A DNA stretch of 13,399 nt from Clostridia bacterium (lineage in GTDB: Bacteria > Bacillota > Clostridia > DSM-8532), in NCBI GenBank assembly GCA_026418215.1, contig JAOABT010000517.1, forward strand, positions 1 through 13,399, in the 5' to 3' direction. A program made the translations under genes and the position numbers. The notes under the pieces were generated by a model. The model saw only the letters and a program-made list of their open reading frames with translations, had not been told where the DNA came from and made no database searches. Shown piece by piece: positions 1,683 to 12,514 of the stretch (position 1 is its first letter; each line of letters starts with the position of its first letter).

Positions 1683-1711
1683 TTGACAAAATACGTCTAC
1701 AAATGTAAACT
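1683..1711 (+). promoter_or_regulatory. Promoter of the BlaI-pseudopeptidase / lipoprotein unit
   Basis: A consensus -35 TTGACA (1683-1688) is separated by 17 nt from TAAACT (1706-1711), a 4/6 match to -10. The -10 overlaps the first TACA-TGTA operator, so bound repressor would block polymerase. Confidence 0.6.
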
Positions 1712-1735
1712 AAGTTTATGACTACATGTGTAGAC
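1695..1735. promoter_or_regulatory. Twin BlaI/MecI-type operators (TACA-N2-TGTA)
   Basis: Two palindromic sites share the core of BlaI/MecI operators: TACA-AA-TGTA at 1698-1707 inside GTCTACAAATGTAAAC, and TACA-TG-TGTA at 1723-1732 inside GACTACATGTGTAGAC. Their centres are 25 bp apart. The first covers the -10 region and the second the likely start site. They lie directly upstream of a gene whose N-terminus is a BlaI-type winged helix, so autorepression is the natural reading. The match to the family core is seen; binding is inferred. Confidence 0.7.
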
Positions 1736-1751: not shown

Positions 1752-2684
1752 ATGAAAGAAGCAAACCACATCACCGAAGCCGAATGGCAGATCATGAGAA
1801 TAGTTTGGGAGAAGGCACCGGTAACATCAGGGGGCATCATTGAAGCACTGCAAAAAAGTATCGGTTGGAGCCCAACGACCATAAAAACCCTTCTCTCAAG
1901 GCTGGTAAAAAAGAATGTCATAGGCTTTGAGGAAAAGGGCAGGACCTTTTATTATCGCCCTCTCGTTACTGAGGAGGCGTGTATCAAAGAAGAGATGCGC
2001 ATACTCATTAGCAGAGTCTATGGTGGGGCGCTTCACAAAGAAACTTCCCATTTTATGTTTTATGGCAGCAACGATCAGGATTACATTGATACTTTGTCTC
2101 ATTCCCTTGAATCAAATTACGAAAGAATTGTTGCAGATTTGGGGGTTGAGCTGACCGAGAAAGTGACCCTATACATTCATTCCAGCCTGCAAAGGCTCCA
2201 TTCGGCATTGGGAGTACTCAATGGTCCGGCTTGGTTGAGGACCGGGTGGACATGGGGTATCCTGCACATCGTAACGCCAGAGTATTTTACAGATCTTTCA
2301 GCAGAGAAGGTTGCAGTCCATTCTTTAGCGGAGATTATCATACAAAAGATCAATCCTCAAGCACCCTATTGGCTGCATCAGGGTATAGCCGCCTATGAAA
2401 GCCGATGGTTGAATAAGGATTGGATCAAGTCAATCATCTCAGACAAGGTAAAAAAGGATAAGCTTTCGCCATTAAAGACCATCATGTCTGATTACAGGAC
2501 ATTTGGAGACGACCAGGGGTATGTGTTTGCCTATACGGTGGCGGAGTTTATTGTTGAGAATTACGGCTTTTCAAAGCTGGGCATATTGCTGCGCGCGCCC
2601 AACAGTTTTCTTGAAACGTTTCATTGCCCTGAAGAACAGTTTTGGGGCAGCTGGGTTGATTATATAGAAAAAAATTATTTATAG
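1752..2684 (+). CDS. BlaI/MecI-type winged-helix regulator fused to an inactive peptidase-MA-like domain
   Basis: A 310-residue protein with no signal peptide or membrane segment. Residues 6-75 match the BlaI/MecI/CopY winged helix (ITEAEWQIMRIVWE, SPTTIKTLLSRLVKK, FYYRPLVTEEA). From about residue 98 to the end it is colinear with the lipoprotein encoded next door: SHFMFY with DHFTLSY, ESNYERIV with ESGYARMV, INPQAPYWLHQGIAAYE with INPKTPRWLNEGIAFYE, and a shared C-terminus (FIVENYGF, FWGSWVDYIEKNY). The metal site is lost: HEYVH of the partner reads HSLAE at 190-194 and the Glu of NEG reads Gln210. A normal BlaI is about 125 residues, so this is a repressor whose usual C-terminal half is replaced by a pseudopeptidase, probably as a ligand- or peptide-sensing module. 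Twin operators upstream suggest autoregulation. The ATG follows GAGG by 7 nt. Confidence 0.88.
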   Translation: MKEANHITEAEWQIMRIVWEKAPVTSGGIIEALQKSIGWSPTTIKTLLSRLVKKNVIGFEEKGRTFYYRPLVTEEACIKEEMRILISRVYGGALHKETSHFMFYGSNDQDYIDTLSHSLESNYERIVADLGVELTEKVTLYIHSSLQRLHSALGVLNGPAWLRTGWTWGILHIVTPEYFTDLSAEKVAVHSLAEIIIQKINPQAPYWLHQGIAAYESRWLNKDWIKSIISDKVKKDKLSPLKTIMSDYRTFGDDQGYVFAYTVAEFIVENYGFSKLGILLRAPNSFLETFHCPEEQFWGSWVDYIEKNYL

Positions 2685-2694
2685 GGGGTAAAAA

Positions 2695-3588
2695 ATGAAG
2701 AAAGTATTAAGATTACTCTTATCATCGTTAATATTAGCCGCCATACTGTCGGGATGTGCATCGAACAATCATAAGGTCGATGTTAAAGCAGGAGAACCTC
2801 TTGATTCCTCTGTTACACCCACTCAAGCTACTGGTACACCACAACCCACTGAAGCTGCAACAGTAAATGCGGAGACTAACAAATACGGACTGAAGTTTAA
2901 GCAGGAAACAGATCATTTCACTCTTAGCTATTTTTCAACCGACTTTTCAGATAAAGATAAAGAGTGCATCAACAAAATCATAGACTCCATGGAATCCGGT
3001 TATGCAAGAATGGTTGAGAACTACAAGATGAGCTTTGGGTATAAAAAGGATATTGAAATCCATAAGGATCACAAACAGCTTCACATTGCTATGGGGATAC
3101 CTGACGCCCCAGACTGGGCGTGTGGAGGGTACGGTTATGGGAAAATACTTGCAGCCTCGCCGCTGCTGCCAACACCGATGACCAATTATGACTGCCTAAT
3201 CAATACGCCCTTTCATGAATATGTACATCTCATTGTACAGAGTATTAATCCGAAGACACCCAGATGGTTGAATGAGGGTATCGCATTTTATGAGGCTAAG
3301 GATCACGAATTGTCATGGGTTATTGGTACGGTTCGGACAGGTATTGCCGCCAATAACATACCGAGTTTTGATGATTTGGATACAGGGGATGATTTCCAAA
3401 CCTTTACATACCGAAATGGGTATCAATACATGTACACTTTTATTGAATTCATTGTCGAGACGTATGGATATGAAAAGCTCTGCGACTTTATCAAGGCTCC
3501 CGATGACTTTAAAGGAGTATTTGGTTTATCCAAAGATGAGCTATGGACGAAATGGGTTGAATACTTGAAAGAGACCTATAAAAAATAA
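2695..3588 (+). CDS. Lipoprotein zinc metallopeptidase-like protein (gluzincin, peptidase MA type)
   Basis: A 297-residue predicted lipoprotein. Residues 1-20 are a signal peptide (KK, then a hydrophobic core) with lipobox LSGC ending at Cys21, so it should be anchored on the outer face of the membrane. A Thr/Pro/Ala-rich linker covers about 40-60. The catalytic domain has HEYVH at 174-178 (two zinc-binding His and catalytic Glu) and the third-ligand motif WLNEGIAFYE at 191-200 with Glu194, the pattern of peptidase-MA/gluzincin families. The gene starts 10 nt after the stop of the BlaI-type fusion, with GGGGG before its ATG, so the two are cotranscribed. The fusion carries a dead copy of the same domain, pointing to duplication and a regulatory pairing. 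The substrate, perhaps cell-wall peptide or secreted protein, cannot be read from sequence. Confidence 0.85.
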   Translation: MKKVLRLLLSSLILAAILSGCASNNHKVDVKAGEPLDSSVTPTQATGTPQPTEAATVNAETNKYGLKFKQETDHFTLSYFSTDFSDKDKECINKIIDSMESGYARMVENYKMSFGYKKDIEIHKDHKQLHIAMGIPDAPDWACGGYGYGKILAASPLLPTPMTNYDCLINTPFHEYVHLIVQSINPKTPRWLNEGIAFYEAKDHELSWVIGTVRTGIAANNIPSFDDLDTGDDFQTFTYRNGYQYMYTFIEFIVETYGYEKLCDFIKAPDDFKGVFGLSKDELWTKWVEYLKETYKK

Positions 3589-3940: not shown

Positions 3941-4528
3941 ATGTCACAAGAAACCATGCAGAAACGCACCCTTTCAAGCTCAGCCAAGAAGGGCATGAGC
4001 ATCACCGACATTCTTTTGGTCGGCGTTCTTTTAGCCGCAGGCGCAGTCCTCAAATTCTTTGTAGGAGCCATTTTTACCGCAGGCATGAAGCCCAACTTCA
4101 TTATCGCCATGTACTGTCTCGCCATTATCCTCATCCGCCCCAAGTTCCTTGAAGCCCTCGTTATCGGTATCCTTGCAGGCGTCGTGGCACAGTTCTTCCC
4201 TGGAACGCCCTACATAAATCTCTTAAGCGAGCTTATAGGCGCTGCTGCCATGTACCTGCTTCTCATGATTCCGTTCAAGCTTGAGCTTGGCAAGATTTCC
4301 ATCAAGCCCATAATCTCAACCTTTATCGCCACGCTGTGCAGCGGCTTCACTTTCCTTGGTGCGCTCTATGCGCTGTTCTATGCAGGAGCCCATGTCAAGA
4401 CCATGCCTGTTGGCGTATTCCTCGGTATTATCTTCGGAACCGCTCTTGTGAACGCTATCATTGTTGAAGTTCTTTATATCCCCTTGAAGCTAGCACTTGG
4501 AAAGAAGGTCGCTGATGATCCAGTTTAA
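3941..4528 (+). CDS. trpP: ECF transporter S component, TrpP-like (probable tryptophan uptake)
   Basis: A 195-residue integral membrane protein with about five or six hydrophobic segments after a polar N-terminus. It resembles the TrpP/YhaG family in length, in the conserved GMKPN motif after the first helix (AGMKPNFIIAMYCLAIIL), and in the FFPGTPYIN loop, which corresponds to the PGGQIPN-type loop of TrpP. S components bind the substrate and dock on a shared T/A1/A2 module, here encoded directly downstream. AGGAGG lies 7 nt before the ATG. Its stop overlaps the start of ecfA1 by 14 nt. The TRAP-like leader, and the indolepyruvate oxidoreductase and arylacetate ligase genes downstream, support tryptophan or another aromatic acid as substrate. 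A general ECF S component of other specificity remains possible. Confidence 0.72.
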   Translation: MSQETMQKRTLSSSAKKGMSITDILLVGVLLAAGAVLKFFVGAIFTAGMKPNFIIAMYCLAIILIRPKFLEALVIGILAGVVAQFFPGTPYINLLSELIGAAAMYLLLMIPFKLELGKISIKPIISTFIATLCSGFTFLGALYALFYAGAHVKTMPVGVFLGIIFGTALVNAIIVEVLYIPLKLALGKKVADDPV

Positions 4529-5369
4529 GAATCTCTCTTTCTCCTATGAGAATTCAGAGGTCATGACTATTCACAATATTGATTTGAAAATAGATAAGGG
4601 TGAATTTGTAGGCATTATTGGACCTTCGGGCGCTGGCAAATCCACCCTTGTCAGCTTAATGAACGGGGTTATCCCGCACCACCGGAGGGGCGATTTCTAT
4701 GGCGCTGTTCTGGTTTGCGGTAAGGATACCGTCGACAGCAGCTGTGGTGAGCTCTCTCACTTTGTCGGGAGTGTCTTTCAGGACCCCGAAGCTCAGATTA
4801 TATCGACCGAGGTCGAGGATGAAATTGCCTTTGGCCTCGAGAACCTGAACTTTCCTCCCGGGGAGATTGAAAAGCGTATTACTGAAAGCCTTAGGATGGT
4901 AGGTATTGAGCATCTAAGGCATCGCAACACCTCGGCGCTTTCGGGGGGGCAGAAGCAGCGTGTCGTCATTGCCGCGGCCATTGCCTTAAGACCTCAGATC
5001 CTCGTTCTGGATGAACCGACCTCCGAGCTCGACCCGGCGGGAAGCCGTCAGATTTTCAGCACGCTTAAGCATCTTAACGAGGACTATGGCATCACTATCA
5101 TTATCGTGGAGCAGAAGGTCATGCTATTGTCGGAATTCTGCAAGCGGTTCATGGTCATGGATCAAGGCCGGATCATCCTCGATGGCCCAACTGGGGAGAT
5201 TCTAAAGCATAACGACAAGCTGATGGAGCTTGGTATCAACTGCCCCAGAGTAGTTTCTTTAACCAGGCTTTTGATTGATTCGGGGCTCTATCAGGGTGAC
5301 TATCCCACCGATGTGGATACGGCCGAAAAAATGGTTAGAGCACTCATAAAAAGCGGGGGTAGCCTATGA
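4515..5369 (+). CDS. ecfA1: ECF transporter ATP-binding subunit EcfA1
   Basis: A 284-residue ABC ATPase of the energy-coupling-factor type. Motifs, numbered from the chosen start: Walker A GPSGAGKST 36-44, Q-loop Gln89 in FQDPEAQ, signature LSGGQ 142-146, Walker B ILVLDEP 162-168, D-loop ELDP. The H-loop position reads VEQK, so the usual His is Gln200. The frame extends upstream to a TTG at 4497, but the ATG at 4515 is preferred: GAAGG lies 6 nt before it and the protein then begins MIQFKNLSFSY like its family. The gene overlaps the S component by 14 nt and ecfA2 by 4 nt (ATGA), indicating translational coupling. It pairs with EcfA2 to power substrate import through EcfT and the S component. 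Confidence 0.93.
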   Translation: MIQFKNLSFSYENSEVMTIHNIDLKIDKGEFVGIIGPSGAGKSTLVSLMNGVIPHHRRGDFYGAVLVCGKDTVDSSCGELSHFVGSVFQDPEAQIISTEVEDEIAFGLENLNFPPGEIEKRITESLRMVGIEHLRHRNTSALSGGQKQRVVIAAAIALRPQILVLDEPTSELDPAGSRQIFSTLKHLNEDYGITIIIVEQKVMLLSEFCKRFMVMDQGRIILDGPTGEILKHNDKLMELGINCPRVVSLTRLLIDSGLYQGDYPTDVDTAEKMVRALIKSGGSL

Positions 5370-6178
5370 TTGCCATAAAAAATCTTTCATACGCCTACGA
5401 TAAAAAAGCGCCCCTTATTCTTAACAATATTAATCTCAATATCCAGCAAGGGGAATTCGTTGCCATTATCGGGCAGAACGGTGCCGGCAAAACAACGCTT
5501 TTAAAGCAGCTTAACGGCCTGCTGAAGCCTAATACCGGCTCTGTCCTTATCAATGAGCTCAATACGGCAACAACGAAAACCAGTATCCTTGCCAAGCACA
5601 TTGGCTATCTGTTCCAAAACCCGGATCACCAGATTTTTTGCAATACTGTATACGATGAGATCAAATTCGGGCTTGTGAATATCAAATGCGAGCCTGAAAA
5701 AATCGAAGGTAAAATTAAAGCGATAGCTTCCCTTTTAGGGCTTGAAAATAAATTGTCGAAGAACCCCTTTACCTTAAGCCGAGGCGAACGTCAGAGGGTG
5801 GCTCTGGCCTCGGTGCTTGTTCTTGAGACAGATATTCTTGTATTGGATGAGCCCACAACGGGTCAGGACTACAAGGAATGCATAGAAATCATGGATATCG
5901 TGAAGGGCCTCAATGAAAAGGGTAAAACCATCATTATGGTCTCCCACGATATTGAAGGGGTATCAGACCATACCCAACGCGTGATCATTTTAAGGAATGG
6001 CGGCGTCTTGGAGGATGGACCCACGAGGCAGGTTCTGAAGCATCAGGAAAACCTTATGCTGGCAGGCTTGGAGCCTCCGCAGATCATTCAATTGGCCTTG
6101 AGGTTTGGAGACCTTTTTGACGGAGCATTTTCCGTTGAAGAAATCTTTGAAATCATTAAGCAAAAATGCAGGGCATAG
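5366..6178 (+). CDS. ecfA2: ECF transporter ATP-binding subunit EcfA2
   Basis: A 270-residue ABC ATPase, second of the pair. Walker A GQNGAGKTT 36-44, Q-loop Gln84 in FQNPDHQ, Walker B ILVLDEP 157-163, and an H-loop His194 in VSHD are all standard. The signature motif reads LSRGE (137-141) instead of LSGGQ. The start ATG overlaps the TGA of ecfA1 and follows a GGGGG tract. The C-terminal segment after the H-loop (EDGPTRQVLKHQENLMLAGLEPPQI) is typical of EcfA proteins. It forms the heterodimeric motor with EcfA1 at the inner face of the membrane. Confidence 0.93.
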   Translation: MIAIKNLSYAYDKKAPLILNNINLNIQQGEFVAIIGQNGAGKTTLLKQLNGLLKPNTGSVLINELNTATTKTSILAKHIGYLFQNPDHQIFCNTVYDEIKFGLVNIKCEPEKIEGKIKAIASLLGLENKLSKNPFTLSRGERQRVALASVLVLETDILVLDEPTTGQDYKECIEIMDIVKGLNEKGKTIIMVSHDIEGVSDHTQRVIILRNGGVLEDGPTRQVLKHQENLMLAGLEPPQIIQLALRFGDLFDGAFSVEEIFEIIKQKCRA

Positions 6179-6193
6179 AAAGGTAAATCACGC

Positions 6194-6955
6194 ATGAAAG
6201 AAATGCTTCAATACATAAACGGTGATTCCTTTTTTCATAAGCTTAATCCGCTTACAAAGCTGACGTGGGCCTTTCTGACCTGTATTGCGTGCTTTGCGAG
6301 CTCGCACCATCTGTTTGTTTTAAGCCTGTTGATCCTGAATATCGCAGTTGCGGCATCAAGCAGGATATTAGATAAGGCAAAAGGTGTATTTAAGGCTCTC
6401 TTTATTTTGGGCTTCATCTTGATGCTCTTCCAGCTTTTCTTCACCCCCTTTGGCAAGGTCTATTTTTATATCCTCCCGGGAGTGCCCGTTACCGATCAGG
6501 GCGTGAGCTTCTCGCTTCTCCTCATGCTCAAAATGATTGCGGCCCTTTCGCCGCTGTCCCTCATGATCATGCTGACCCCCATGAACGAGCTCTTAACCGC
6601 AATGGTCGACAAGCTCAAGGTGCCTTACCGCTATGCATTCGTCGTGGTTACTGCCTTAAGATTTATTCCGACGTTTTCACATGAGATGGACCAGATCATG
6701 CAGGCCCAAATGTCCAGAGGGCATGAAACTGACACAAAGAACCCGTTTAAGAAGATCGGCGTGATCATCCCCATGTGCATCCCCCTTCTGATTTCATCGG
6801 TTCGAAAGATAGAAACCATGGCCATTTCCATTGAAACAAGGGGTTTTGGCACGGGGCCACGTTCCTATCGGAAAAAACTTGAGTTTACATTAAAGGACCT
6901 ACTCTTTATAATCATAGTGGTAATGATACTCGCACTAAGTTTCATCATTCGCTAA
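6194..6955 (+). CDS. ecfT: ECF transporter transmembrane subunit EcfT
   Basis: A 253-residue membrane protein of the CbiQ/EcfT family, with hydrophobic segments at roughly 25-60, 66-85, 105-128 and 235-252. It carries the two X-R-G coupling motifs that contact the ATPases: SRG at 174-176 (AQMSRGHE) and TRG at 215-217 (ETRGFGTG). It starts 15 nt after ecfA2 with AAAGG before the ATG. It transmits ATP hydrolysis to the S component encoded at 3941. With S, A1, A2 and T together the cluster is a complete dedicated group I ECF transporter. Confidence 0.93.
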   Translation: MKEMLQYINGDSFFHKLNPLTKLTWAFLTCIACFASSHHLFVLSLLILNIAVAASSRILDKAKGVFKALFILGFILMLFQLFFTPFGKVYFYILPGVPVTDQGVSFSLLLMLKMIAALSPLSLMIMLTPMNELLTAMVDKLKVPYRYAFVVVTALRFIPTFSHEMDQIMQAQMSRGHETDTKNPFKKIGVIIPMCIPLLISSVRKIETMAISIETRGFGTGPRSYRKKLEFTLKDLLFIIIVVMILALSFIIR

Positions 6956-7017
6956 AATATTCGTCTTTTTTGGCCTCTCATGAGGCGCATGATTTGATAG
7001 AAAGCCGGTGTATAGTC

Positions 7018-8805
7018 TTGCTGAAGCTGTTAATGGGAAACGAAGCCATAGCGCTTGGAGCCATAAAAGCAGGCGTCAACGTGGTCTGCGGCTATCCGGG
7101 GACCCCTTCGACAGAGGTTTTAGAAACGGTAGCCAAGCATAATGACGGCTCTATATATGTCGAATGGTCTGTTAACGAGAAAACCGCCATGGAGGTGGGG
7201 GCGGGGGCTGCCTATTCAGGTGCCCGAACCATGGTCACCATGAAGCAGGTGGGTCTCAATGTCGCCTCCGATCCCTTGATGAGCCTTGCTTACATAGGGG
7301 TAAAGGGCGGCATGGTTATTTTGGTTGCCGACGACCCCGGTCCGCTGTCCTCCCAGACTGAACAGGATACCAGGCATTTTGCTAAATTCTCCAACCTTCC
7401 GGTTCTGGACCCTACGACGCCGGAGGAAGCCTATGAAATGGTGCAATATGCGTTTGAGCTTTCTGAACAGGTAGGATTGCCGGTTTTTCTTCGTCCCACC
7501 ACACGAATCTGCCATGCTTGCGCGCCGATAGAAGTATCGGAAGAAAAGATCAACCATAAGCCGGAAGGCTTTATCAAGGACCCTAAATGGGTTATCTTCC
7601 CGTCCCTGGCTTATAAAAGGCATATTGAAATTGAAAAACTGCAGAGTCACCTTTCTGATTTATTTGATAAGAGCGCTTTCAATGCTGTTTCAGGTCAGGG
7701 AAGGCTTGGTATTGCCGCGTCCGGCATTGCTTATGCTTATGCCTGCGATGCCTTGAAGGCTATGGGGAGCGATGTTAAGCTCTTAAAAGTAGGTACGCCC
7801 TATCCCTTCCCAAAAGCTACTGCAGAAAGCTTTTTAAATGAAGTTGACCAGGTGCTTGTGCTCGAAGAGCTCGACCCTGTCGTTGAGGAAGCCCTTCTGG
7901 AGCTATGTGCCCAAAAGGCGCTGTGTGTGAAGGTTCTGGGTAAGAAAGACGGCACAACGCCATGCTGTGGAGAATTCTCGTTTGAGATTGTATATAACAC
8001 CATTGCGAAATATATTGGCAGGGACGTACCGGCTGCTGCTGAAGCGCCTTCACAGCCTCTGCCCTCAAGACCACCGGTGCTATGCGCAGGCTGCCCCCAC
8101 AGGGCCTCCTTCTATGCCGTTAAAAAGGCGATGAAGGGCAAAAAGGCCGTCTTTACGGGAGATATCGGCTGCTACACGCTGGGTAACGCCAAGCCCCTTA
8201 ACATGGTGGATACCTGCTTATGCATGGGCGCTTCCATCAGTGTCGCACAGGGCATCAAGCGTGTCGAGCCCGATACAACCCTGTTTGCCTTTATCGGCGA
8301 TTCAACCTTCTTCCATACAGGAATCCCCGGCATCATTAATGCCGTTTATAATCAGACCAACCTCGTGCTGGTGGTGCTAGATAACAGCACAACGGCCATG
8401 ACGGGCCACCAGCCTCATCCCGGCATTGCAAAAACCATGATGGGCAATGTTTCTGAAAAGGTCAGCATTCCGCGAATTTTAAAGGCTATCGGCATCAAGA
8501 ATGTGTGGACTTTGAATCCTTTTGACCAGAAGGCCGCCATCAACGCTGTTCAAGACGCTTCGCAAATCAACGGTGTATCAGCTATCGTATTTGAAGCGCC
8601 CTGTATTGCCATAATCCCCAAACCCAAGGCGCTTAGTGTTGAAAACGATAAATGCCGGGCCTGCGGTCTTTGCGTCAAGGAAATCGGCTGCCCCTCCCAA
8701 TATGTTACGGCTGACAAGAAGGTTCATATCGAGCCCTCAACGTGCTATGCCTGCGGTCTTTGCAAGAGTATATGCGCCTTTGATGCCATAGGAGGTGAGG
8801 CATGA
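7018..8805 (+). CDS. iorA: Indolepyruvate:ferredoxin oxidoreductase, alpha subunit
   Basis: About 595 residues. IorA with IorB interconverts aryl pyruvates (indolepyruvate, phenylpyruvate) plus CoA with arylacetyl-CoA, CO2 and reduced ferredoxin, using thiamine diphosphate. Seen in order: a pyrimidine-binding domain with GYPGTPSTEV, the central transketolase-C-like domain, the TPP domain with GDIGCYTLGN, GDSTFFHTGI and the IorA hallmark LDNSTTAMTGHQPHPG, and a C-terminal two-cluster ferredoxin domain with Cys546, 549, 552, 558 and Cys576, 579, 582, 586. The start is uncertain. The frame opens with a TTG at 6970, but family members begin about two to six residues before LLMGNEAIA, so TTG 7018 is chosen; ATG 7033 is the alternative, and none has a strong ribosome binding site. 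It overlaps iorB by 4 nt. Confidence 0.93.
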   Translation: MLKLLMGNEAIALGAIKAGVNVVCGYPGTPSTEVLETVAKHNDGSIYVEWSVNEKTAMEVGAGAAYSGARTMVTMKQVGLNVASDPLMSLAYIGVKGGMVILVADDPGPLSSQTEQDTRHFAKFSNLPVLDPTTPEEAYEMVQYAFELSEQVGLPVFLRPTTRICHACAPIEVSEEKINHKPEGFIKDPKWVIFPSLAYKRHIEIEKLQSHLSDLFDKSAFNAVSGQGRLGIAASGIAYAYACDALKAMGSDVKLLKVGTPYPFPKATAESFLNEVDQVLVLEELDPVVEEALLELCAQKALCVKVLGKKDGTTPCCGEFSFEIVYNTIAKYIGRDVPAAAEAPSQPLPSRPPVLCAGCPHRASFYAVKKAMKGKKAVFTGDIGCYTLGNAKPLNMVDTCLCMGASISVAQGIKRVEPDTTLFAFIGDSTFFHTGIPGIINAVYNQTNLVLVVLDNSTTAMTGHQPHPGIAKTMMGNVSEKVSIPRILKAIGIKNVWTLNPFDQKAAINAVQDASQINGVSAIVFEAPCIAIIPKPKALSVENDKCRACGLCVKEIGCPSQYVTADKKVHIEPSTCYACGLCKSICAFDAIGGEA

Positions 8806-9401
8806 TGAAGTGTGATGTCTTAATTACGGGTGTCGGCGGACAGGGTCAGATTCTCGCCTCTCGCTTAATTGGAGCTGCAGCTATCATTGAAAACCAGCCG
8901 GTGAGAACCGGCGAAACCATAGGCATGTCCCAGCGCGGGGGCTGTGTGGTCAGCCATGTGAGAATAGGTGGCGAGAGCAAAAGCGCTACCATTCCCTTTG
9001 GTTATGCAGATTTGATCATTGGCTTCGAGCTTTGCGAAACGGTTAGAAGTCTCAATAGACTTTCCCCGGATGGAGGGCTTATCGTCAATAAGCAGACCAT
9101 AAATCCCGTAACGGTATCCCTCGGCATGGAAGCCTATGACACCGAAGCCATGGAAAAGGCCCTACAGGCTAAAACAGATAAGCGATTAATAGTTGACGGC
9201 TATGGACTTGCGCAGCAGGCCGGTTCCGTAAAGGCAGTCAATGTGGTGCTTTTGGGTGCGGCCGTGGGCTCGGGCTTTTTGAAGCTTTCAAGGGAGTCCT
9301 TTATCGAAGCCATTAAGAGCACCGTTTCCCAGAAGTTCCATGAGCTCAATGTGAAAGCCTTTGAGTTGGGCTATGGTTTTGCCAATATGGCAATGAAGTA
9401 G
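8802..9401 (+). CDS. iorB: Indolepyruvate:ferredoxin oxidoreductase, beta subunit
   Basis: A 199-residue protein of the 2-oxoacid oxidoreductase gamma/IorB family. It shows the N-terminal GVGGQGQILASRL motif (10-22), the GMSQRGGCVVSHVRIG segment that lies at the active site interface, and the C-terminal VVLLGAAVGSG strand-loop. It is the partner of IorA in a soluble ferredoxin-linked enzyme. The ATG overlaps the iorA stop and is preceded by GGAGGTGAGG, so the two are coupled. An ATG immediately after it at 8805 could equally serve. Confidence 0.94.
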   Translation: MMKCDVLITGVGGQGQILASRLIGAAAIIENQPVRTGETIGMSQRGGCVVSHVRIGGESKSATIPFGYADLIIGFELCETVRSLNRLSPDGGLIVNKQTINPVTVSLGMEAYDTEAMEKALQAKTDKRLIVDGYGLAQQAGSVKAVNVVLLGAAVGSGFLKLSRESFIEAIKSTVSQKFHELNVKAFELGYGFANMAMK

Positions 9402-9469
9402 TCAAATTGAAGGTGCATCTGGCAAAGAAGTACAGGCATGGGAGCATAGCCTTCGTTTGAAAATTACTG

Positions 9470-9499
9470 CTTCCTTACAGCCAAAATAAAGCTAGGAAG
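9470..9499 (+). other. Imperfect hairpin after iorB
   Basis: CTTCCT (9470-9475) pairs with AGGAAG (9494-9499), and inside it AGC (9479-9481) pairs with GCT (9491-9493), giving a 9-bp stem with a 3-nt bulge and an A-rich loop. There is no T tract after it. It may be RNA-stabilising structure at the end of the ior transcript or a weak terminator. Confidence 0.3.
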
Positions 9500-9521
9500 G
9501 CTTAAGAAAAGCATTAAGTTG

Positions 9522-9550
9522 TTGTGAGACGGGCTGACAAGCCATTTAAT
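9522..9550 (+). promoter_or_regulatory. Candidate promoter of paaK
   Basis: TTGTGA (9522-9527, 4/6) and TTTAAT (9545-9550, 5/6) are 17 nt apart, placing a start near 9557 and a leader of about 88 nt before the ligase gene. The 243-nt gap after iorB makes an independent promoter plausible. Confidence 0.4.
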
Positions 9551-9579
9551 AAACTATTTTAAGATGGAGTATGATTTCT

Positions 9580-9611
9580 TAGGATAAGCAGGCGATTTAA
9601 CGCTTGTCCTA
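9580..9611 (+). other. Stable hairpin in the paaK leader
   Basis: Bases 9580-9589 pair with 9602-9611 in a 10-bp stem with one G-U pair and a 12-nt loop. It lies about 20 nt upstream of the ribosome binding site (GAGGAG near 9634) and has no T tract, so it is not a terminator. A role in mRNA stability or control is possible. Confidence 0.4.
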
Positions 9612-9644
9612 TCCTTAGTCCTGCAAGAGTTAAGAGGAGTGTAG

Positions 9645-10886
9645 ATGAGCATGAGAGAAGAAGTTTTCTCCGACATTCAAAAGCTATTAGAGCGCGTTTT
9701 CAACCAAAGCCCTTTTTACGGGAAAAAGTTTAAAGAGGCAGGTTTTCGTTTAGAGGACATCAAATCAGCTGAAGATTTTAAGCGTCTTCCCTTTTCAGAC
9801 AAGGATGAACTTCGCCTGGCCTATCCCTTGGGCCTTTTATCAGTTCCACAGGATGAGGTGGTAAGAATTCACTCCTCCTCGGGAACAACGGGGAGCCCCG
9901 TTATCATACCTTACACCCGGCAGGATGTAGAGGATTGGGCCACCATGTTTGCCCGTTGTTACGAGATTGCGGGCATCACCAAGAAGGATGTCATTCAAAT
10001 CACCCCGGGTTATGGTCTCTGGACCGCAGGCATAGGCTTCCAGGCAGGCTGTGAAAAGCTGGGCGCTATGGCTGTTCCGATGGGCCCCGGCAATACCGAC
10101 AAGCAGATTCAGATGATGATAGACCTAAAAAGCACCGTCATCTGCGCAACCTCTTCTTATGCACTTCTTTTGGCTGAAGAAGTTGAGAAGCGGCAGCTCC
10201 ACGATAAAATCTGTCTTAAAAAGGGTGTTATCGGCTCAGAACGCTGGGGCGATCTCATGAGAAACCGCATCAGAACCGAGCTTGGCATAGAATTGTTCGA
10301 CATCTACGGCCTCACCGAGGTCTATGGCCCGGGTATCGCCATGGATTGCGAATGCCACGAGGGCATGCACTACTTCGACGATTTCCTCTATTTTGAGATC
10401 ATCGATAGCGAAACCGGAGAGGTTCTGCCAGACGGCGAGGTGGGTGAGCTTGTTATCACGACCCTCAAGAAGGAAGCCGCTCCCCTTGTACGTTATAGAA
10501 CCCATGACCTGACGAGAATAATTCCCGGAAAGTGCTCCTGTGGCAGAAGCTTCCCCATGATTGACCGCATCATAGGAAGAACGGATGACATGGTCAAGGT
10601 CAAGGGCGTCAATATTTACCCCGGCCAGATTGACAGCGTTCTTAGGGATATCCACGGGGTCAGCAGCGAGTATCAGATCATCATCAACCATGTGGATGGC
10701 AAGGATCAGATGATCCTTCGAGTGGAGAGGCTGCCGGAAGCAGCTCCTGAGGACCTTGAGCATCGGATCACTGAGGTCTTCAAGAAGAGAATCGGTATCA
10801 AGATTGATGTCGAGACCGTGGTTGTTGGTGGGCTTCCCAGAAGTGAAAAGAAGAGCAAGCGTGTTTTTGACTACCGTGATAAGTAG
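9645..10886 (+). CDS. paaK: Phenylacetate-CoA ligase (arylacetate:CoA ligase)
   Basis: A 413-residue AMP-forming acyl-CoA ligase of the PaaK family; its length is near the family norm of about 430. Motifs: P-loop SSSGTTGSP 77-85, YGLTE 221-225, RTHD 285-288, and GRTDDMVKVKG 311-321 followed by NIYPGQID, which opens the AMP-dependent C-terminal domain. CSCGR near 297-301 is the usual PaaK Cys pair. The reaction joins phenylacetate or indoleacetate to CoA with ATP. Next to iorAB it either makes arylacetyl-CoA for reductive carboxylation to aryl pyruvate, or in reverse captures energy from arylacetyl-CoA. The ATG at 9645 follows GAGGAG; an in-frame ATG two codons later is less well placed. Confidence 0.92.
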   Translation: MSMREEVFSDIQKLLERVFNQSPFYGKKFKEAGFRLEDIKSAEDFKRLPFSDKDELRLAYPLGLLSVPQDEVVRIHSSSGTTGSPVIIPYTRQDVEDWATMFARCYEIAGITKKDVIQITPGYGLWTAGIGFQAGCEKLGAMAVPMGPGNTDKQIQMMIDLKSTVICATSSYALLLAEEVEKRQLHDKICLKKGVIGSERWGDLMRNRIRTELGIELFDIYGLTEVYGPGIAMDCECHEGMHYFDDFLYFEIIDSETGEVLPDGEVGELVITTLKKEAAPLVRYRTHDLTRIIPGKCSCGRSFPMIDRIIGRTDDMVKVKGVNIYPGQIDSVLRDIHGVSSEYQIIINHVDGKDQMILRVERLPEAAPEDLEHRITEVFKKRIGIKIDVETVVVGGLPRSEKKSKRVFDYRDK

Positions 10887-10904
10887 GGTCTGAAAAGACT
10901 TTGA

Positions 10905-11140
10905 CATGACTCGGGAGGACGTCTGTAAAGGCGTCCTTCTATAACAAAGAAGAGGGCCTGATTGAAAGAGCCGAAGCTGTAAGCGGTTATTTAAATCTCT
11001 TTTTTAATCGTGCCCGGGTTAATGAGGCTGTTCTTTCCTTAGTATCTGACTCAAATAAAGATAAGCGTGTACTTGGCACTAAAAATAGCACCACGAGAGG
11101 CTCTGAGGAAGGTTTAGGACAGTCCCTCGGCTCGGTCACA
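10905..11140 (+). pseudogene. argS: In-frame remnant of the arginyl-tRNA synthetase N-terminal domain
   Basis: Directly after a TGA at 10902-10904, the frame of the downstream synthetase is open with no ATG, GTG or TTG before 11141. It encodes recognisable family sequence: IERAEAVSGYLNLFFNRA followed by a helix (VNEAVLSLV) matches the end of the ArgS N-terminal domain. An unusual Ser/Lys/Gly-rich stretch of about 20 extra residues then precedes LGRGKTVLIE. Roughly the first 60-80 residues expected in ArgS are absent, and only about 50 nt separate this remnant from paaK. A CTG at 10958 is the sole near-cognate start. The open frame shows either a recent deletion or translation from an unrecognised start. 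Confidence 0.6.
10914..10939 (+). terminator. Hairpin after paaK (possible terminator)
   Basis: GGAGGACGT (10914-10922) and GCGTCCTTC (10931-10939) form a 9-bp stem with two G-U pairs and an 8-nt loop, 28 nt after the paaK stop. The tail TATAAC is not T-rich, so termination is uncertain. The hairpin lies at the point where the truncated argS frame begins. Confidence 0.4.
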
Positions 11141-12514
11141 TTGGGCCGGGGTAAAACAGTGCTGATTGAATTCTCCTCACCCAATATTGCAAAGCCTTTT
11201 CATGTTGGGCATCTTTACTCCACTGTCATTGGAAACTCTATTGAGCGAATATATAAGCATTTAGGCTACAACACTGTTCGCATCAATCACCTGGGCGACT
11301 GGGGAACGCAGTTTGGTAAGCTTATTACGGCCTACCTCCTATGGGGAGACGATGAGAAGCTCACCGAAGAGCCCATTCAGGAGCTTTTACGTATTTATGT
11401 CATGTTCCATAAAGAAGCGGAAAGGAATCCGGCTCTGGAGGATGAGGCAAGAAGGTGGTTTAAGAAGCTCGAAGAGGACGATCCGCAGGCAAAGGCACTG
11501 TGGACCAAGTTTTCGGATTTAAGCCTCAAAGCTTTTAATAAGCTTTATGACCGTCTTGGCATTACCTTCGATTCCTATGCGGGAGAGAGCTTTTATAGCG
11601 ATAAAATGGATGAAGTTGTTTCTTTATTGGATCAAAAGGGCTTATTAGCTGAGAGCGACAACGCTAAAGTAGTTAATTTGGAGGCCTATAGCCTGCCGCC
11701 CTGCCTTATTGTGAAGTCGGACGGCGCGACCATCTATGCTACCCGTGACCTTGCAGCTGCACTCTACAGAAAACGCACCTATGATTTTGATAAATGCCTT
11801 TATGTGGTTGGAACGCCTCAGGCACTCCATTTCCAGCAAGTGTTCCATGTGCTTGAGCTGGCGGGCTTCGCGTGGTACCGTGACTGTGTCCATATAGGCT
11901 TTGGTTTGGTGCGCTTTGCTGACCGTAAGCTGGCTACACGAACCGGTGATGTCATCTTTTTGGAGGATGTCCTGAACGAATCCGTTAAGCGCTCCTTGGC
12001 TTTGATCGAGGAGAATAACCCGGCTCTTGAGAATAAGCAGGAAACCGCTGAAAAGGTAGGCATTGGCGCTATTATGTTTGCTTTTCTTAAAAGTGGACGG
12101 GAGCGAGATATTGTGTTTTCGTGGGAAGAAATGCTCAACAACGAAGGGGAGTCTGGGCCTTATCTTCAGTATACCTATGCCCGCGCACAGAGCATCCTTA
12201 AAAAATCCGGCATACCGGATCAGGCATCTTGCGATACTTCACTTCTGGTTTCAGATGAGGAGTTTGCCATTGTTAAGCTGTTGGACAGCTTTCAATACGC
12301 AGTTGTGGATGCTGCCGAAAAATATGAGCCGAGTATTCTTGCAAGGCATGCGCTAAACCTTTCCCGGGCATTCAACCGTTTTTACAATCACTGCCCGGTT
12401 TTAAGCGCCGAGCCCGAGCTTCGGAAGGCTCGCCTGTGGCTCATCCGTTCATTCTGTGCTGTCCTCGAAACCGAGCTGGAACTGCTCGGCATGAAAGTAT
12501 GCAAACAGATGTAG
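11141..12514 (+). CDS. argS: Arginyl-tRNA synthetase, N-terminally truncated
   Basis: A class I aminoacyl-tRNA synthetase charging tRNA-Arg. From the TTG at 11141 it gives 457 residues against about 550-590 for the family. Present: SSPNIAKPFHVGHL with the HIGH-type motif at 21-24, HLGDWGTQFGKL, SDGATIYATRDLAAA, the KMSKS-equivalent KLATR at 263-267 followed by TGDVIFLEDVL, GPYLQYTYARAQSI, and the C-terminal DALR anticodon-binding domain ending LGMKV. The tRNA D-loop-recognising N-terminal domain is mostly missing, though part of it is coded in frame upstream. The TTG has no ribosome binding site; a GTG at 11159 has a weak GGGG upstream. The long intact frame argues against old decay. Whether it is active, or is a second copy, cannot be told here. 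Confidence 0.8.
   Translation: MGRGKTVLIEFSSPNIAKPFHVGHLYSTVIGNSIERIYKHLGYNTVRINHLGDWGTQFGKLITAYLLWGDDEKLTEEPIQELLRIYVMFHKEAERNPALEDEARRWFKKLEEDDPQAKALWTKFSDLSLKAFNKLYDRLGITFDSYAGESFYSDKMDEVVSLLDQKGLLAESDNAKVVNLEAYSLPPCLIVKSDGATIYATRDLAAALYRKRTYDFDKCLYVVGTPQALHFQQVFHVLELAGFAWYRDCVHIGFGLVRFADRKLATRTGDVIFLEDVLNESVKRSLALIEENNPALENKQETAEKVGIGAIMFAFLKSGRERDIVFSWEEMLNNEGESGPYLQYTYARAQSILKKSGIPDQASCDTSLLVSDEEFAIVKLLDSFQYAVVDAAEKYEPSILARHALNLSRAFNRFYNHCPVLSAEPELRKARLWLIRSFCAVLETELELLGMKVCKQM

Follow-up and report, generated by a model that had tools for sequence, protein, structure and literature searches.

The gene at positions 1752..2684 (+ strand) of the window, a stretch of 13,399 nt from a Clostridia bacterium (DSM-8532; assembly GCA_026418215.1, contig JAOABT010000517.1, forward strand), encodes a protein of 310 aa in which a BlaI-type repressor is joined to an inactivated gluzincin-fold domain of the Peptidase_MA_2 type, as indicated by Pfam and structure matches. 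The fusion is real, it extends over a whole protein family, and it is undescribed among the literature matches listed. We infer a sensor role for the inactivated domain. The reading that we favour, with rather better than even confidence, is a one-component BlaI repressor in which the inactivated peptidase domain serves as the sensor for a ligand in the cytoplasm, probably a peptide. A BlaI-type switch that has lost the cutting site of its peptidase domain and stands beside genes for surface proteins would probably sense something inside the cell. BlaI-type control is known to operate via the membrane receptor BlaR1. A BlaI family with a built-in dead peptidase domain and a conserved operator, found across several phyla, offers a direct test of intracellular peptide control in the absence of BlaR1 and suggests a new kind of sensor module for transcription factors.

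The repressor half of the fusion is clearly recognisable as one of the BlaI/MecI/CopY type. The Penicillinase_R profile matched residues 7-120 with an E value of 5.7e-28 and 98 bits (Pfam cut-off 22.6), and the structure search matched this half to MecI. According to the Pfam match, the structure matches and the alignment, a MecI/BlaI-like winged helix and the first dimerisation helix occupy residues 1-89 (1752..2018, +). The C-terminal two-helix dimerisation domain of BlaI is incomplete: its first helix (residues 74-89) is retained, and from about residue 91 onward both the secondary structure and the structure matches are those of a gluzincin fold. The resulting domain (residues 91-310; 2022..2681, +) was assigned to Peptidase_MA_2 on a profile match together with the gluzincin fold. 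No Peptidase_M56 match was obtained for the fusion in Pfam. The first-pass annotation, made from the letters of the window, had proposed that the C-terminal part of the regulator is homologous to the adjacent lipoprotein peptidase and had suggested a profile search of each half. Both halves were recovered by such a search, and the homology was borne out, the two domains aligning at 29% over 252 aa and with a profile-profile probability of 100%.

The zinc site of the domain is lost. In the alignment, HSLAE (residues 190-194; 2319..2333, +) stands at the position of HExxH, and HQG (residues 209-211; 2376..2384, +) at the position of the third zinc ligand, which is NEG in active relatives. This destruction had been pointed out for the window and proved to be family-wide, as HExxH with the downstream Glu is kept in 0/68 aligned fusion-family proteins, the window's included; the alignment also contains P0091, a protein of 236 aa without a called Pfam domain. 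The column of the second His holds His in none of the 68 proteins. Glu appears once in the HExxH column and once at the NEG column, in different rows. The first His is retained in 65/68, and Q210 is Gln in 65/68 fusions and Glu in all 23 active relatives. HExxH-like strings in nine fusion rows were rejected as candidates, being located near residue 95 or 2, away from the active site.

Despite the loss of the zinc site, the domain is well kept. Its mean conservation is 2.17 bits against 2.39 bits for the winged helix. Moreover, S151, W168 and H172 are fixed in 68/68, F179 in 67/68 and W219 in 63/68, at positions that are variable or carry a different residue in the 23 active relatives. Conservation near that of the winged helix, together with these newly fixed residues, makes the domain look like one that acquired a new function, not like one in decay. 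In the secondary structure, H172 lies on, and W168 between, two short strands preceding the HExxH helix, and Q210 lies on the helix after it. The regions of W168, H172 and Q210 presumably line the cleft of the gluzincin fold. The substrate strand of BlaR1 was reported to run antiparallel to a strand of the gluzincin sheet (PMC9834060), and residues 164-174 of the fusion, including W168 and H172, would be the counterpart of this substrate-strand region.

The family is sparse yet spread across phyla. The first protein search returned 31 proteins and a search with their alignment returned 68, the window's included; all but P0091 have a Penicillinase_R domain. They come from sources such as Clostridia, other Bacillota, Fusibacter, Spirochaetes and Izemoplasmatales/Tenericutes, and the first search returned one from Fusibacter bizertensis, a cultured host. 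Full-length fusions were found in 2/33 genomes of the window's order (G000 and G021), in 8/90 genomes of the order of L040 and in 3/194 of the order of L034. With at most five candidates scored per genome, the phylum sample yielded a full-length fusion in 1/398 genomes and the class sample in 1/391, the second genome listed in the latter carrying an active-type protein. The contig scan of genomes gave at least ten full-length fusion loci. Carriage on mobile elements was also considered and rejected: the full-length fusion was unseen on plasmids, phages and viral contigs, the plasmid and phage collections matching the winged-helix half only (1 and 8 records, none covering 80%) and the viral contigs giving no match.

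The DNA context was available for 20 loci (the window, L032-L041, L202, L206, L209, L211-L214, L228 and L229), all selected by similarity to the window's fusion and most from metagenome-assembled drafts. A co-directional gene with a lipobox-like start, the lipoboxes being judged by eye, is present in 19/20. In 13/20 loci an S41-protease-like gene adjoins the fusion on the same strand, upstream in L035 and downstream in the other twelve, that of L032 being cut by the contig end. PD40 propeller lipoproteins occur in four loci, identified by Pfam in L212 and L213 (below the family cut-off in L213) and by eye in L228 and L229; in L213 a lipoprotein without a Pfam match is next to the fusion and the PD40 gene follows. 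In L214 the neighbouring lipoprotein has no Pfam match, and in the window the neighbour is the MA lipoprotein. The shared theme is a surface lipoprotein in the apparent operon of the regulator, for which the window substitutes a metallopeptidase. Two loci count against the sensor model in this respect: L202 has no co-directional gene within the 851 bases available downstream, and in the S41-like gene of L039 an in-frame stop lies between the lipobox segment and the remainder.

The palindrome TACAnnTGTA is the consensus of BlaI/MecI-type operators. The window holds two exact sites of this kind at the fusion's own promoter, a sigma-70-like TTGACA-17-TAAACT predicted by a consensus scan at 1683..1711 (+); the stretch contains 10 promoter-consensus sites against a shuffled mean of 6.3. 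The two putative operators flank the end of the promoter, TACAAATGTA (1698..1707, unstranded) lying in the spacer and overlapping the -10 element, and TACATGTGTA (1723..1732, unstranded) just downstream of the -10 element. The arrangement recurs in the family. Between -80 and +45 of the listed start, exact TACAnnTGTA was found in 12/18 loci (13 sites, consensus GACTACAnnTGTAGTC), and the loci's own rate gives an expectation of 0.014 exact sites per locus; this count covers 18 loci, L228 and L229 having been found later. A site with one mismatch is near the start in L032, L202, L206 and L212. The operon of L035 is led by the S41 gene, with two exact sites before it; in L228 and L229 GTTTACAAATGTAAAC precedes the first PD40 gene, which likewise leads the operon. 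L037 has an exact operator only at -464, a distance that speaks against the sensor model.

An extended pattern, ACTACAnnTGTAGT with at most one mismatch, is rare, each of six genomes having 1-7 such places, and its reversed control was commoner in five of the six and equal in one. Since the extended pattern is no commoner than the control, it is position that supports the operator. For the same reason no wider regulon is claimed. A regulon beyond the fusion's own operon was looked for in the window's genome, and the only other operator sites belonged to an ordinary BlaI (contig C635) or lay within an ORF (one site, on C431). The sober reading of the sites at the fusion is a local, autoregulated operon. 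The outer letters of the operators differ between loci, being GTTTACA...TGTAAAC (L228 and L229) and ATTTACA...TGTAAAC (L213) on the PD40 side and mostly GACTACA...TGTAGTC on the S41 side. Fusion paralogues may thus have diverged in operator specificity.

The 20 loci come from 15 genomes, of which 14 were searched for a BlaR1 partner; no M56/BlaR1-like gene adjoining the fusion was found in these 14. Peptidase_M56 exceeded the cut-off in one of them, the window's own genome, where the match is on contig C635 beside a separate, ordinary BlaI with its own operators upstream. Sub-cut-off matches in three genomes are likewise not adjoining the fusion, the nearest (G1064) being 25 kb away on the fusion's own contig. 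In control genomes the same search gave matches in 9/14, two of them over the cut-off. The first-pass annotation had described a one-component arrangement distinct from BlaR/BlaI. The part concerning BlaR1 agrees with the lack of an adjacent BlaR1-like gene in these genomes, and the one-component part is best kept as a probable interpretation.

Several known systems share parts of this design. BlaI and MecI have a winged helix with a similar recognition helix, the same type of operator and an operator at their own promoter. In contrast, their last dimerisation helix is replaced in the fusion by a gluzincin-fold domain of 220 residues, and the fusion lacks an adjacent BlaR1/MecR1 and has surface lipoproteins, not a beta-lactamase, as neighbours. 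According to one report, gamma-D-Glu-meso-diaminopimelate and gamma-D-Glu-L-Lys bind BlaI and MecI, respectively, apparently at the C-terminal domain, and this peptidoglycan dipeptide response weakens the repressor-DNA complex (MecI dissociation constant about 8 mM); a role of cytoplasmic peptidoglycan fragments in BlaI-type control was proposed there (PMC3305447). BlaR1 and MecR1, M56 gluzincin receptors, also tie a gluzincin fold to BlaI-type control (PMC9834060), whereas the gluzincin fold of the fusion is soluble, fused to the repressor and devoid of a zinc site. The nearest precedent is PrpR. PrpR and RamB combine a DNA-binding domain with a metallopeptidase-like fold that lacks HExxH and binds the effector CoA; in PrpR of Mycobacterium tuberculosis, CoA was described in the cavity of this IrrE-like fold (PMC6765138). 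Both the DNA-binding domain and the peptidase fold of the fusion are different, and neither an XRE nor an IrrE match, the pair that marks PrpR/ScfR regulators, was among its six Pfam matches listed at E up to 1. Active Peptidase_MA_2 proteins share the fold and the sequence family with the fusion, but its zinc site is lost. Extended ECF sigma factors resemble it in that a sensor is fused to a transcription factor without a separate partner, and they differ in that the extensions described are SnoaL, TPR or Cys-rich and are carried by sigma factors (PMC8999054). Both a dead-peptidase effector domain in a regulator, PrpR, and peptide-responsive BlaI repressors are therefore already on record. 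By title or abstract, none of the literature matches listed, one of which names the Pfam family, showed a BlaI or a sigma factor fused to a Peptidase_MA_2-type domain, in agreement with the earlier statement that a described system of this form was not known.

A mechanism can be proposed on these grounds. The winged helix would bind the TACAnnTGTA palindromes at its own promoter, and the repressor would thereby silence its own gene and the lipoprotein gene or genes of the same operon. The gluzincin-fold domain takes the place of the last dimerisation helix, with its zinc chemistry gone and its own invariant residues kept. A ligand reaching the cytoplasm, most likely a peptide such as a product of the cell wall or of proteolysis, would enter the old cleft, and its binding would loosen the repressor from DNA, so that the fusion and the surface lipoprotein are derepressed. 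The dipeptide precedent of BlaI/MecI and the CoA precedent of PrpR make the sensing of a peptide or metabolite reasonable. On the other hand, cytoplasmic sensing of a ligand made outside would need import, and the role of the conserved residues might lie in folding, dimerisation or partner binding.

The neighbouring gene (2695..3588, +) starts 10 bases past the fusion's stop and probably lies in one operon with it. Its product, by ORF, Pfam and alignment, is a lipoprotein with a lipobox-like LSGC and an active-type Peptidase_MA_2 domain, in which the zinc motif HEYVH (3214..3228, +) and the third ligand in NEG (3271..3279, +) are intact. In the window the two genes stand side by side and are homologous, and the dead domain had been called a copy of the metallopeptidase encoded next to it. 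Such a local duplicate, tuned to the same substrate or inhibitor, is extremely improbable. A tree of 77 rows was built from every second non-identical fusion protein plus four loci, 15 sigma-factor rows (described below) and 25 active rows; P0054, L214, L015, L135, L140, L112 (the P0038 protein) and domains that were shorter than 170 residues or identical were omitted. The 37 fusion domains form one clade with support of 100/100, the window's lipoprotein groups with the active proteins, and constraining it together with the fusions was rejected (p-AU 0.0007). Local duplication is disfavoured by both the tree and the AU test. An active paralogue adjoins the fusion in only 1/20 loci, the window itself (flank lengths vary), and in 11/14 fusion genomes no non-fusion member of the domain family was found at E 1e-8, the exceptions being the window's genome, G021 and G1101. 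The first-pass annotation had staked its idea on the two genes being neighbours in homologues as well. Given these two counts, the pairing comes close to being refuted, which is not so of the sensor idea. That fusion and lipoprotein bind the same peptide is suggested by their homology and by nothing else. As a separate observation, L112, L113 and L144 encode close active relatives of the lipoprotein that are short and start at or near the domain; they are apparently cytoplasmic, because a signal peptide is absent by eye. In L226 (G1101:C29) the genes of an active-type MA protein and, on the opposite strand, of an S41 homologue are about 700 bases apart, and MA-type and S41 enzymes may be functionally linked.

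Other roles of the dead domain have to be weighed against sensing. Dead enzymes may turn into protein-binding scaffolds, and among the structure matches of the fusion is chain B of the TFIID entry 7edx, which we take to be TAF2. With this precedent, the domain might be a docking or dimerisation module that binds a partner or holds the dimer while the signal comes from elsewhere. Its replacement of the last BlaI dimerisation helix and the location of about half of the newly fixed residues outside the supposed cleft agree with such a role. We nevertheless consider it unlikely, as W168, H172, Q210 and W219, which are among the best conserved of the newly fixed residues, surround the lost zinc site both in sequence and in secondary structure, and inspection of the 20 loci by eye revealed no cytoplasmic partner gene that recurs. 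Derepression by proteolysis at the fusion junction would have its model in BlaI, which was reported to be cleaved by BlaR1 between Asn101 and Phe102 (PMC9834060). His100-Phe101 of the fusion aligns at this Asn-Phe site, Phe101 matching the cleavage-site Phe of S. aureus BlaI and being Phe in 67/68. The same His and Phe, however, are conserved in 22/23 and 23/23 active relatives without any BlaI part, so that the pair is probably part of the peptidase fold, in its first strand. With no M56 neighbour either, this route appears improbable. Finally, the domain could be chemically alive, with H172 (68/68), H190 (65/68) and H143 (45/68) forming a different metal site in a metal sensor or changed enzyme; the replacement of H143 by Tyr in 23/68 leaves this a very remote prospect. 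Ligand sensing by the inactivated domain thus stays the preferred reading.

A parallel case, distinct from the window's gene, was found in ECF sigma factors. In family f35 of the window's phylum, reached via G098 and searched with at most nine candidates scored per genome, 35/197 genomes match an ECF sigma factor joined to a member of the same domain family; the match is nearly full length in 31 of them and partial in the other four. Examples of an ECF sigma factor with a C-terminal inactivated MA-type domain are L142:7554-8774 and L146-L175 (G098 and relatives). HExxH is present in 0/31 aligned sigma rows, and xQG stands at the NEG position of the active proteins in 25/31; one protein appears twice among the 31 rows, as L142 and as L146. 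In the 77-row tree the 15 sigma-linked domains group in a separate clade (100/97) next to active SLH-type proteins. A shared inactivated ancestor of the BlaI-linked and sigma-linked domains is opposed by the best tree, but one common clade gave a p-AU of 0.095, which is above rejection. Inactivation on two occasions is therefore favoured but not proven. No convincing recurrent neighbour of the sigma-linked proteins was seen in flanks of 1.5 kb. It is tentatively proposed, as a possibility short of even odds, that inactivated gluzincin domains are a general intracellular peptide sensor joined at least twice to unrelated transcription machinery, namely to BlaI repressors, which in several phyla stand next to surface lipoproteins, and to ECF sigma factors in one family of the window's phylum; the window would then represent a self-contained BlaI system that needs no BlaR1.

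The remainder of the window contains several further features. Positions 3941-10886 encode a TrpP-like membrane protein, two ABC ATPases and a CbiQ-type protein; after these come a two-subunit ferredoxin oxidoreductase, presumably of the indolepyruvate type, and an AMP-binding ligase. These genes may serve aromatic amino acid uptake and fermentation. The start of the arginyl-tRNA synthetase gene at 10887-12514 appears to be missing. Before the TTG listed as its start (11141) the reading frame stays open as far back as a stop near 10905, and this upstream part shows N-domain-like residues by eye and no usual start codon. Either an assembly join or a true truncation would account for the loss. 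At the other end of the window, the opening bases agatgtgtataagagacag (1-19) are, we assume, a transposase adapter end, and the contig end carries library adapter sequence.
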